Assembly (NCBI GenBank): GCA_002070095.1
Contig: MWCR01000001.1
Coordinates: forward strand, 124,001 to 188,000
DNA: 64,000 bases
Reading direction: 5' to 3'
From: Parcubacteria group bacterium ADurb.Bin192
GTDB taxonomy: Bacteria > Patescibacteriota > Patescibacteriia > 2-12-FULL-60-25
In this document: piece by piece, positions 44,256-48,064 of the stretch
Layout: the number at the start of each line of letters is the position of its first letter
Numbering within the stretch: position 1 is the first letter of the stretch
The notes under the pieces: model-generated
Told to the model about the DNA's origin: nothing
The model's database searches: none
Seen by the model: only the letters and a program-made list of their open reading frames with translations
Position numbers and translations under genes: made by a program

Positions 44256-45581
44256 TTATCTGATATAAAGCAAAGGATTGACCCGCTTGCCGTTAACGTA
44301 AACTTCAAAGTGAATATGCGGACCCGTGGAACGGCCGGTGGAGCCCATCATGGCAATCACCTGCCCTCGCTTAACCTGGTCGCCCGCGCTGACAAACAGT
44401 TTGGAAGCATGCGCGTAGCGCGTCTTCATGCCATTGGGATGTTCAATCAAAACCTGATAACCGTAACCGCCGGAGTTCCAACCGGATATGGCCACCACTC
44501 CATCATCAGCCGCATACAAAGGATTGGTATGATCGCCGGCAATATCCAAACCCGTATGTCTCCAGCCGTAATACTGTGTGATGATCCTGGCTGACGTAGG
44601 CCACAGCAGACGTGTCTTAGGGGCTTCGGGTTTTTCCACGGCATCATTTGGTTTTTGAACAGGATTTTCTCCGGGAGCCACTTCTCTGGTTGTTCCCGGT
44701 TCTTTCAAGACATAGTTGGTCGAGGCCACGGTGCGCACAGGCACAACCGCCGGAGGTTCTCCGCCGGGGATAATCAACTCCATACCCACTGTTACTTTTT
44801 CGTCGGAAAGATTGTTCTGCTTGATGATTTCCTCCACATTGCCGCCGTATTTCTTGGCAATACCGGAGAGAGTCTCTCCCTTGCCAACCTTGGCTAAAAC
44901 ACCGGAAACCGGCAAAATTTTCAAATTATCTCCGGGTCTGATGTATTGTCTTTCGGTTAAATTATTGGCCCATAATACAGTACCTACATTAACGCTATGA
45001 TCTCGCGCGATGGTTCCCAGCGTGTCTCCGGCTTTAACCGTATAGTTCTCGACTTCCGTACGCTTGGGTTTGACGGGCGATGATTCTTCGGCCCGATGAT
45101 CCAGAGGCGCTAAAACCAAGGTTCCCGGAATTTGACCGGATACTCCATCCATCTCCTCTTCATCCATGGCATGATAATTAAAATCAATATAAGGAACAGC
45201 CTCTATGGTTCCCGGACCAAAACGATTGGCCGAAGCAGGTTTAACACTTTCAACCAATTTTTGTTCGGTCACTATTTCAACCGTTCCTTCGGTCATCAAA
45301 GAATACAAAATACTGCGCTTGCCGATATCTTGAGCCAAGACTTGTTTGGTCTGCACATTGAACCAAATAGCAACCAAGGAAGCCGTGACCACAGCCGCGT
45401 GAAATAAATATCTATTGGTTACGAAAAATAGGATAAAACCTCTGGCCGGTAAAGCTAAGCGCTGTAATCTTAATTTGGAAAGCACGATTAGCTTGTATAA
45501 CGGCAGAAAAACAAAACGCAAGAAAAAACGAGCCGCGGGTTTCAGAATAGATCCTAAAACCACTACAAAAAAATACTCCAA
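44256..45581 (-). CDS. LysM and M23-peptidase cell-wall protein
   Basis: A 441-residue protein with one membrane helix (about 48-75), two LysM domains (about 175-220 and 225-270; YTVKAGDTLGTIARDHSV and VGKGETLSGIAKKYGG), and a C-terminal M23 metallopeptidase (about 325-441). The zinc ligands are in HTGLDIAG and HIHFEV, with the catalytic His in RYAHASKL. It should bind and trim peptidoglycan at the cell surface. The first 45 residues are basic and amphipathic. Long AT-rich gap upstream. Confidence 0.92.
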   Translation of the reverse strand: MEYFFVVVLGSILKPAARFFLRFVFLPLYKLIVLSKLRLQRLALPARGFILFFVTNRYLFHAAVVTASLVAIWFNVQTKQVLAQDIGKRSILYSLMTEGTVEIVTEQKLVESVKPASANRFGPGTIEAVPYIDFNYHAMDEEEMDGVSGQIPGTLVLAPLDHRAEESSPVKPKRTEVENYTVKAGDTLGTIARDHSVNVGTVLWANNLTERQYIRPGDNLKILPVSGVLAKVGKGETLSGIAKKYGGNVEEIIKQNNLSDEKVTVGMELIIPGGEPPAVVPVRTVASTNYVLKEPGTTREVAPGENPVQKPNDAVEKPEAPKTRLLWPTSARIITQYYGWRHTGLDIAGDHTNPLYAADDGVVAISGWNSGGYGYQVLIEHPNGMKTRYAHASKLFVSAGDQVKRGQVIAMMGSTGRSTGPHIHFEVYVNGKRVNPLLYIR

Positions 45582-45877: not shown

Positions 45878-46402
45878 AAGCTGAAAAAAGAACGCGCAAA
45901 ACCGATTGAATCAGGCGGCTACGGGCACCACCACGGGTTCCGCCTTACTTTCTTGGACTGTTTTGTCTTTTTGTTTAGGATGCTCGATCGTATAGATCAG
46001 AGAAGACAACATCTTCTGAATAATGGTGTTAGTCTCTCTTAATTTTTGTATTTCTTGATCTTGCTTGGGGTACAATTCCTGTAGCAAGAGAAGATAGGTC
46101 TCGCATTCCGCGGAATTGCCGTTGGCATAGTTCAAGTGGCGGACAAATTCGGTTTTATTGCGCTTGCGTTGACCTTCCGCGATTTGAGCCGGCATGGCCA
46201 CGGCCGCCCGGCACAAATGAGAGGCTACACCGTAGCGGTCTTCGGCCGGCACATTTTTTACCAAGGCGTAAACACATTTAGCAAAGTCAAAACTTTGTTG
46301 CCAAACCACCATGTCCCTGAATGATTGAAACGACATATATATTATTGATAATTATTAGATACGAACATTAATTAATTGTTTTGCGCGTTCTTTTTTCAGC
46401 TT
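45878..46402. mobile_element. IVS-type element: four-helix-bundle gene inside perfect 25-bp inverted repeats
   Basis: The ends AAGCTGAAAAAAGAACGCGC (first 20 of 25 bases, 45878-45902) and the exact complement at 46378-46402 enclose one gene of the 23S rRNA-intervening-sequence protein family. In rRNA genes such elements fold into a stem and are cut out by RNase III. Here the element lies between two protein genes. Confidence 0.75.
45911..46336 (-). CDS. Four-helix-bundle protein (23S rRNA-intervening-sequence family)
   Basis: A 141-residue protein: FRDMVVWQQSFDFAKCVYAL (about 6-25), RYGVASHLCRAAVAMPAQIAEG (split; about 34-55) and AECETYLLLLQELY mark the S23/four-helix-bundle family. These proteins form pentamers and are encoded by intervening sequences in 23S rRNA or as free-standing genes; their molecular function is not settled. 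The gene fills an element with perfect inverted ends. A short Lys/Val/Pro-rich tail is added. Confidence 0.92.
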   Translation of the reverse strand: MSFQSFRDMVVWQQSFDFAKCVYALVKNVPAEDRYGVASHLCRAAVAMPAQIAEGQRKRNKTEFVRHLNYANGNSAECETYLLLLQELYPKQDQEIQKLRETNTIIQKMLSSLIYTIEHPKQKDKTVQESKAEPVVVPVAA

Positions 46403-46417
46403 CAAGCTTTTAATGAT

Positions 46418-47926
46418 CTATATTTGTTGGCGGTACTGCAAAGCTTCGGCGATATAAACTTCCCGAATGGTTTGATCAGCAGCCAAATCGGCTATGGTTT
46501 GAGCCACTCTCAATAAACGAAAATATGCTCTGGCCGATAAACCATATCTATCAGCCGCCTGACGCAATAGATTCTTGGCCTCTGGCGATAAAACCAAAAA
46601 TTTTCTGATGTGATCGCTCCTTAGCTCGGCATTGCACCCCACACCCAAGTCGGCGGATCTGACCGTTTGCAAATCTCTGGCCGCCTGCACTCTTTGCCTG
46701 ACAACCGAAGTGGATTCTCCTTGCTCGATTTTTATGAGTTCCGTGGTCGGCACGCGCGGAACACTGACTTTCAAATCTATTCTGTCCAAAATCGGACCGC
46801 TCAAACGCTTGGTATATTTTTGAATTTGAGCCGAAGTGCAAATGCAGTGGCGCTCCGGATCCGAAGCATAGCCGCAAGGACAAGGGTTCATGGCCGCCAG
46901 CAAAGTAAACCCGGCCGGAAAAACCACCGTGCCTTGAGCGCGCGAGACTGAAACATAACCATCTTCCAAGGGTTGTCTTAAATTTTCCAAAACGGTCCGG
47001 GAAAACTCAGGGAACTCGTCTAAAAACAAAACTCCGCGATGAGCCAAAGATATCTCTCCGGGCTTGGGCACGGTTCCTCCGCCCACCAAAGCCGCGCCGC
47101 TGGCCGTATGATGAGGACATCTGAAAGGACGCGTAAAACAAAAACCATCGCGCGGCAAAACACCGGCAATGGAATGAATGCGCGTTACTTCAAGCGCCTC
47201 ATTGGGCGTCAGGCAAGGCAGAATGCCCGGAAAAGCCCGGGCCAGCATGGTCTTACCCGATCCCGGAGGACCAAACAGCAACACGTTATGCCCGCCCGCG
47301 GCCGCGATTTCCAAAGCGCGTTTGGCATGCGCCTGACCTTTGATTTCGCTAAAATCCAAAACCTTGGCGTTCTGCACCACGGATTCCAACTTAACACCGG
47401 TCCATGGCGACATAGCCGCCCGCCCTGACAGATGCTTGACCACTTGGTCGATATTCTCGGCGGCCAAAACCCTGACTCCGCTCACCAAGGCCGCTTCATT
47501 GGCATTGACCTTGGGTACGATCACGGTCCGATTACGGCTGCTTTGGGCTGACATGGCTACCGAGAGCGCTCCTTGCACGGCTCTGACCGTGCCATCCAAA
47601 GCCAACTCTCCCACCATCAGAGGCCAGCCCTGATCCGGTTCCAGCAAATAATTCATGGCAGACAATATGGCGATGGCAATCGGCAAATCATAACCCGAAC
47701 CGCCTTTGCGTAAATCAGCCGGCGCCAAATTAATGGTTATCTTGGTATAAGGGAAGGGCAGATCAGAATGCTTCATGGCCGACCTGACCCTTTCGCGAGC
47801 TTCTTGCACCGCGGCATCGGGCAGGCCCACCACGATAAAGGCGGGTAAACCATTAGATATATCCGCTTCCACGGACACGGCCTTGGCTTCTATGCCCATG
47901 AGCGCGGCAGTAGGTATGGGATGCAT
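46418..47926 (-). CDS. comM: ComM/YifB Mg-chelatase-like AAA+ ATPase
   Basis: 502 residues from MHPIPTAALMG, the usual family start, with a weak AAAGGT upstream. An Lon-like N-domain (about 1-165; VVGLPDAAVQEARERVRSA) precedes the AAA+ core with Walker A GPPGSGKTMLARAFPG, Walker B GVLFLDEFPEF and the zinc-like CPCGYASDPERHCIC. The C-terminal Mg-chelatase domain ends with RLLRVAQTIADL. In naturally competent bacteria ComM is a branch-migration helicase for incoming DNA, consistent with the type IV pilus genes here. Confidence 0.93.
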   Translation of the reverse strand: MHPIPTAALMGIEAKAVSVEADISNGLPAFIVVGLPDAAVQEARERVRSAMKHSDLPFPYTKITINLAPADLRKGGSGYDLPIAIAILSAMNYLLEPDQGWPLMVGELALDGTVRAVQGALSVAMSAQSSRNRTVIVPKVNANEAALVSGVRVLAAENIDQVVKHLSGRAAMSPWTGVKLESVVQNAKVLDFSEIKGQAHAKRALEIAAAGGHNVLLFGPPGSGKTMLARAFPGILPCLTPNEALEVTRIHSIAGVLPRDGFCFTRPFRCPHHTASGAALVGGGTVPKPGEISLAHRGVLFLDEFPEFSRTVLENLRQPLEDGYVSVSRAQGTVVFPAGFTLLAAMNPCPCGYASDPERHCICTSAQIQKYTKRLSGPILDRIDLKVSVPRVPTTELIKIEQGESTSVVRQRVQAARDLQTVRSADLGVGCNAELRSDHIRKFLVLSPEAKNLLRQAADRYGLSARAYFRLLRVAQTIADLAADQTIREVYIAEALQYRQQI

Positions 47927-48064
47927 AATTTCGACCTTTATGAGGCTTAATATGACCTCAATATACCCCTGCCATATTTTTATTCGGACACGCAAACAAG
48001 CTGACAAAAAAATAAAAGTCTCGGATTTTCCGAGTTAATTCAAATCAATATTTGTTACCGATCT

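Follow-up and report, generated by a model that had tools for sequence, protein, structure and literature searches.

The comM-M23 locus

In the window, by which we mean the whole 64,000-nucleotide stretch of DNA analysed here, a 525-bp element lies between comM and a gene for a LysM/M23 peptidase, and the element and both genes are on the minus strand. The preliminary description of a gene with exact 25-bp inverted ends is accurate: the two arms (45878-45902 and 46378-46402) match at 25 of 25 positions and are 475 nt apart, and a single minus-strand ORF of 141 aa (45911-46336), belonging to the PF05635 family, is the only gene between them. On the strand that carries the gene, comM is followed by a 15-nt gap, the 5' arm, an A/T-rich leader, the gene, an 8-nt gap, the 3' arm and the M23 gene, in detail:

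46418..48007, minus strand: comM (Mg chelatase-like ATPase; Mg_chelatase family), the upstream neighbour, outside the element; the lspA-comM-M23 order is kept across the family
46378..46402, minus strand: stem arm on the 5' side, reading AAGCTGAAAAAAGAACGCGCAAAAC on the gene strand and lying 15 nt past the comM stop codon; paired in the predicted fold, with position and pairing kept in six orthologous loci
46337..46377, minus strand: A/T-rich leader from the 5' arm to the start codon, placed from the sequence and the predicted fold
45911..46336, minus strand: 141-aa ORF for a four-helix-bundle protein of PF05635/TIGR02436, with the lineage-specific C-terminal tail ...EPVVVPVAA
45878..45902, minus strand: stem arm on the 3' side, reading GTTTTGCGCGTTCTTTTTTCAGCTT on the gene strand and lying 8 nt past the stop codon; paired in the predicted fold
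44256..45581, minus strand: LysM/M23 peptidase gene, the downstream neighbour, outside the element, placed from the ORF and a profile match

A search for the ends in the same genome, the 23S rRNA included, had been suggested. A pattern search allowing up to three mismatches found no second occurrence of the 25-mer arm in the 1.44-Mb genome, and the 23S rRNA gene of this genome, located elsewhere, holds no PF05635 gene and no copy of these ends. No transposase or other recognisable recombinase gene was found inside the element, and a Y1 transposase is encoded elsewhere in the window genome (none in G008, a genome rich in PF05635 cassettes). A gene for RNase III is present in the window genome and in six of the six congeners tested. 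A second inverted repeat near the element (45900-45920 and 46553-46573; 81% identity) was taken as a chance match because it is not seen in the orthologs. Two other, distant PF05635 genes are adjacent on contig 7 of the same genome (48.0-49.0 kb), each with arms of the heptamer type described below and of related sequence.

The encoded protein

Proteins of the common PF05635 family, which takes its name from its rRNA copies, have no known function. The 141-aa protein is a strong member of this S23p/IVP four-helix-bundle family, scoring above the curated cut-offs of both PF05635 (23S_rRNA_IVP; E 3.6e-27, 95.1 bits against a cut-off of 33.8, residues 7-111 on positions 1-105 of the 106-position profile) and TIGR02436 (E 2e-26, 92.3 bits against 24); the earlier assignment of an IVS-type protein gene within an inverted-repeat cassette is thus confirmed. 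A profile of the family also hits the solved structure 2gsc (E 5.6e-36), cited in PMC4990558 as a ring of five four-helix bundles. By its family, the window protein could be a ring-shaped, nucleic-acid-binding pentamer that may act on its own stem. Avd, of the diversity-generating retroelements, is a related four-helix-bundle protein (PDB 4dwl; PMC10053308). The reverse transcriptase expected of such a retroelement does not accompany the window element, RVT_1 having no match in the window genome, nor in G008, with its at least 12 PF05635 genes.

The orthologs from six congeners are 58-76% identical to the window protein. Among the orthologs, dN ranges from 0.09 to 0.43, and no dN/dS ratio is given because synonymous distances are saturated; this slow change of the protein, set against saturated silent sites, shows that it is under purifying selection in this lineage. 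A C-terminal tail ending in (E)EPxVVxVAA, or nearly so, is present in all seven orthologs (window 45911-45990) and absent from the other PF05635 proteins sampled, and the orthologs are 136-143 aa long against a sample median of 121 aa. Conservation of the tail in this lineage suggests that the protein has retained a function. Following the idea that a tail in ...VAA might mimic the tmRNA tag, the locus was scanned with ARAGORN, which found no tmRNA in it.

A single insertion at the comM-M23 junction

Thirty comM loci were read for filled and empty sites. The element stands between comM and the M23 gene in seven of the seven genus members that have comM, whereas in 18 other genomes of the family comM adjoins the M23 gene without a PF05635 gene, so that the comparison with an empty site in relatives, suggested at the outset, could be made. 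Two congeners without the element (G002 and G003) gave no match to comM and are therefore uninformative as empty sites. With seven filled sites in the genus and 18 empty ones elsewhere in the family, the simplest reading is that the cassette was inserted once, in an ancestor that predates the radiation of the genus, and has been passed on vertically ever since. Moreover, because it carries no gene for movement and lies in sense orientation 15 nt behind comM, the cassette is probably co-transcribed with comM, on whose transcript it most likely rides.

The neighbourhood of comM holds other cassettes as well. In G011, an unrelated PF05635 gene occupies the same comM-M23 junction, and further unrelated cassettes, with arms of their own, are found on one or both sides of comM in G008 (L027), G006 (L026), G007 (L028) and G011 (L058). 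The presence of unrelated cassettes in these four genomes implies that the region has been struck several times independently.

A stem maintained by paired changes

In comM RNA, the arms would pair into a perfect stem of 25 bp, looping out the entire gene. The inverted repeat encloses the gene at the same position in all six orthologous congener loci, that is, in every relative with the gene, and the doubt first raised, that repeat and gene might not be conserved together, is settled. The arms vary in sequence between species, except for a core motif of the AGCGCG type, and within each species they match. They pair, closing the stem, in all seven predicted folds. In a 16-pair alignment of the seven orthologs, cut by hand around the core in a manner that favours pairing, 98.2% of the cells are standard pairs, and 10 of the 16 pairs are altered on both sides. 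Cutting does not explain the number of double changes, which are seen in 25 cells against 8.6 expected from shuffles (none of 500 shuffles was as high), and the signal is lost when the arms are slid by one to three columns. Thus, the stem has been kept by paired, two-sided changes while its sequence drifted, and the long RNA stem proposed in the preliminary description finds support both in the predicted folds and in covariation. The seven orthologs are the whole basis of this stem evidence and of a further count, made by eye: the orthologs have 11 transition-type arm mismatches, which on the sense strand read as G.U in 9 cases and as A.C in 2 (p 0.065), a lean over 11 cells that fits, weakly, with selection on the sense RNA.

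These results bear on two other explanations of the repeat. A run of T within the 3' arm could point to an ordinary transcription terminator, or the repeat could have arisen by chance, in either case unrelated to the gene; the partner arm, however, lies 475 nt away across the gene, and the position and pairing of the arms are kept in every ortholog and in most of the 159 PF05635 genes examined in this study. Conservation and covariation refute this explanation, which we regard as extremely improbable. To our knowledge, no regulatory role is known for any PF05635 protein, and this counts against a second explanation, by which the stem would be a putative binding site for control by the protein of its own mRNA, or of the comM/M23 transcript, in a cassette domesticated as a regulator. 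The retention of the element in all seven genus members with comM, the purifying selection, the conserved core of the stem, the lineage-specific tail and the greater length of the protein would suit a regulator, but the outer sequence of the stem changes freely, so that any recognition would have to be of shape and not of sequence. On balance, we consider a regulatory stem quite unlikely.

PF05635 cassettes as a class

Inverted repeats were scored across 79 PF05635 genes drawn from 57 related genomes. A score of at least 12 was reached by 91% of these genes, compared with 8% of the 331 ORFs used as controls and 4% of mispaired flanks. The arms consist mostly of tandem 7-nt units, with an identity of 0.58 at lag 7 and 0.57 at lag 14 as compared to 0.27 in control flanks, and with no rise at other lags. 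The same architecture is found in most of 80 more loci from named genomes, an uneven sample because the loci were chosen by similarity to the query alignment, which span the Bacteroidota, Bacillota, Planctomycetota, Acidobacteriota, Spirochaetota, Pseudomonadota, Fibrobacterota and CPR lineages. The heptamer varies from element to element and is weakly more alike in elements with more similar proteins (rank correlation 0.24, over pairs that are not independent); the units tend to hold AG (67 of 91, against 45.5 expected). A single query against 50,697 phage records gave no PF05635 match.

The cassettes are also placed in a characteristic manner. As a rough definition of neighbours, the longest ORFs near each cassette were taken. 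Where both neighbours are co-directional, 79 cassettes have the same orientation as they do and 5 the opposite one; for 106 elements, there is a co-directional ORF upstream whose end falls no more than 60 nt from the start of the arm, with a median offset of -6 nt. The sense orientation and the closeness of the arms to the upstream stop indicate that the cassettes sit in the transcripts of host operons, directly after a stop codon. In the genomes examined here, PF05635 cassettes are far commoner outside rRNA than within it, and a free-standing copy, first presented as the exception, is in the usual place for a gene of this family. The window copy is tied to the heptamer class only by its protein, the position of its arms, its orientation and the context of its insertion, 7-nt units not being apparent in its arms or in those of its orthologs.

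Two sets of loci illustrate the range of the arms. In Vreelandella sedimenti (L138:1766-2635), a PF05635 gene lies between arms of about 212 nt made of GTGAGTG/GTGAATG-like repeats, by far the longest seen. In two Hymenobacter species (L124 and L163), cassettes at the same operon junction have different heptamers, AGAACTT and AGTATTG, each matched in both of its own arms; either there were two insertions or the arms changed together.

Heptamer-type elements overall show no excess of G.U among their arm mismatches (100 G.U against 144 A.C). As a mark of selection on RNA, mismatches favouring G.U therefore fail for the class, and the counts speak against selection on the sense-strand RNA across the class as a whole. 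Since the G.U/A.C count runs the other way in heptamer-type arms, a DNA-level process may keep those arms alike.

Mobility in cyanobacterial plasmids

Filled and empty sites can also be compared in cyanobacterial plasmids. A cassette present in Trichormus variabilis and Scytonema is absent from three other plasmids with flanks about 97% identical; GTAAT flanks the insert on both sides and occurs once in the empty sites. At a second site, in Nostoc, three plasmids have a cassette and others are empty, and at a third (Aulosira) site a cassette of the same kind is present and two relatives are empty. The cassettes at these three unrelated sites are about 80% alike and have similar arms. A consistent target-site duplication was not found, GTAAT marking one clean site and duplications being ambiguous or absent at the other junctions compared. 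The cas6-cas4 junction is occupied by a cassette in two plasmids, of Anabaena sp. 90 and of Pseudanabaena galeata, the two cassettes and their heptamers being unrelated, and other plasmids have none there; this pattern fits insertion at a tolerated junction. Judging by these comparisons, the wider PF05635 class appears to move, or to have moved, as a unit. The proposal of a mobile element can thus be kept for the class, whose cassettes are present or absent in near-identical records; the window copy, single in its genome and at the same junction in all seven genus members with comM, bears no trace of recent movement.

Reduced forms are also seen in these plasmids. At the Trichormus site, Nostoc sp. 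C052 plasmid pC052_E (L183:1245-1376) has a truncated cassette, with one arm and the start of the gene left and the rest and the other arm lost. The cas6-cas4 gap of a Pseudanabaena sp. ABRG5-3 plasmid (L194:577-612) contains a short, gene-less AATTACG array.

Taken at the level of the class, these findings raise the possibility that a mobile element that is still active has the arms as its recombination ends, and that a process at the DNA level, either foldback copying or conversion of one arm by the other in the course of transposition, keeps them complementary, with RNA folding incidental. Such an origin would account for the presence and absence of cassettes at near-identical plasmid sites, the similar elements at three unrelated sites, the GTAAT on both sides of the insert at the clean site, the arms that differ between elements and match within one, and the heptamer-type arms without G.U excess. 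It sits poorly, however, with a window copy that is single, has its ends nowhere else and occupies one site throughout the genus, with an element that has no recognisable recombinase gene, with a window stem whose pairing is kept without the heptamer pattern, and with the other cyanobacterial junctions, at which no clean duplication is seen. For the window element, we find it unlikely.

Discussion

We think it probable that the window element is an old, vertically inherited cassette of the IVS type, with an mRNA stem that is under selection, most likely as a site for the host RNase III. RNase III would cut the stem and thereby free the cassette mRNA, or insulate it from its neighbours, as happens with the IVS of 23S rRNA, and cleavage would limit the effect of the cassette on the neighbouring genes. 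Arm-to-arm gene conversion could be an alternative keeper of matched arms in the absence of any selection on RNA, and counts against the RNase III reading, as do the G.U/A.C counts in the class at large and the reported, probable lack of translation of the Coxiella IVS protein (PMC4990558).

An IVS element is taken out of its transcript by RNase III, and the remaining pieces are not ligated. Leptospira, like Coxiella, has a 23S rRNA IVS with an S23p/IVP ORF. The 23S rRNA IVS of Coxiella burnetii is cut by the host RNase III, as classical IVS are (PMC4990558), and by analogy a perfect 25-bp stem would be the type of substrate cut there. The self-excising RNA first envisaged is not upheld, given that Rfam has no match at the window element and that classical IVS depend for cleavage on the host enzyme (PMC4990558). 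The window element resembles the Coxiella IVS in its protein family, in its terminal inverted repeats, which can form a stem of about 25-28 bp around a single, looped-out ORF, and in its length (525 bp against 428 nt; PMC4990558). In contrast, it lies between two protein genes and not inside 23S rRNA, and its gene is under purifying selection, whereas that of Coxiella is reportedly decaying and probably not translated in vivo (PMC4990558). Moreover, the Coxiella IVS has 7-nt direct repeats before its ORF, like most free-standing copies and unlike the window copy.

PF05635 genes have been found in other settings. They occur in cas operons, and are listed among CRISPR-Cas-associated functions (PMC3936711), near CRISPR/DGR loci (PMC10053308) and, in CPR bacteria, within rRNA insertions (PMC11270868); those in cas operons are of the same family as the window gene and likewise lie between operon genes. 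The heptanucleotide repeats of cyanobacteria and the TAACTGA heptamer repeats have been described as gene-less direct repeats (PMC4679880). They resemble the cassettes in being intergenic arrays of 7-nt repeats close to genes and differ in that the cassettes are inverted arrays that bracket a gene. The ABRG5-3 array, gene-less and at a junction that elsewhere holds cassettes, may be the remnant of a cassette, and suggests a possible link between the two kinds of repeat. In the open-access literature (subscription papers lay outside the search), we found no account of free-standing PF05635 genes flanked by inverted heptamer arrays.

A more general picture, to which we give slightly less than even odds and which we advance tentatively, is that PF05635 genes are the cargo of unrecognised mobile elements that span phyla and are borne on transcripts, with inverted 7-nt arrays, inserted in the sense orientation at operon junctions by stop codons, each element having an arm sequence of its own and its two arms being homogenised together. 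The rRNA IVS, and perhaps some of the cyanobacterial heptanucleotide repeats, would be special cases of such elements, and the window copy a domesticated one with a stem held by selection. If this picture holds, PF05635 genes usually reside in cassettes that have inverted heptamer arms and settle within operons, which would account for the recurrence of these genes in cas and other operons and would give a concrete, testable frame for the origin of rRNA intervening sequences. It also poses the question of how distant arms stay matched while their sequence changes, and the genus of the window offers one copy in which the single insertion, the empty sites and the compensatory changes in the stem can all be read.
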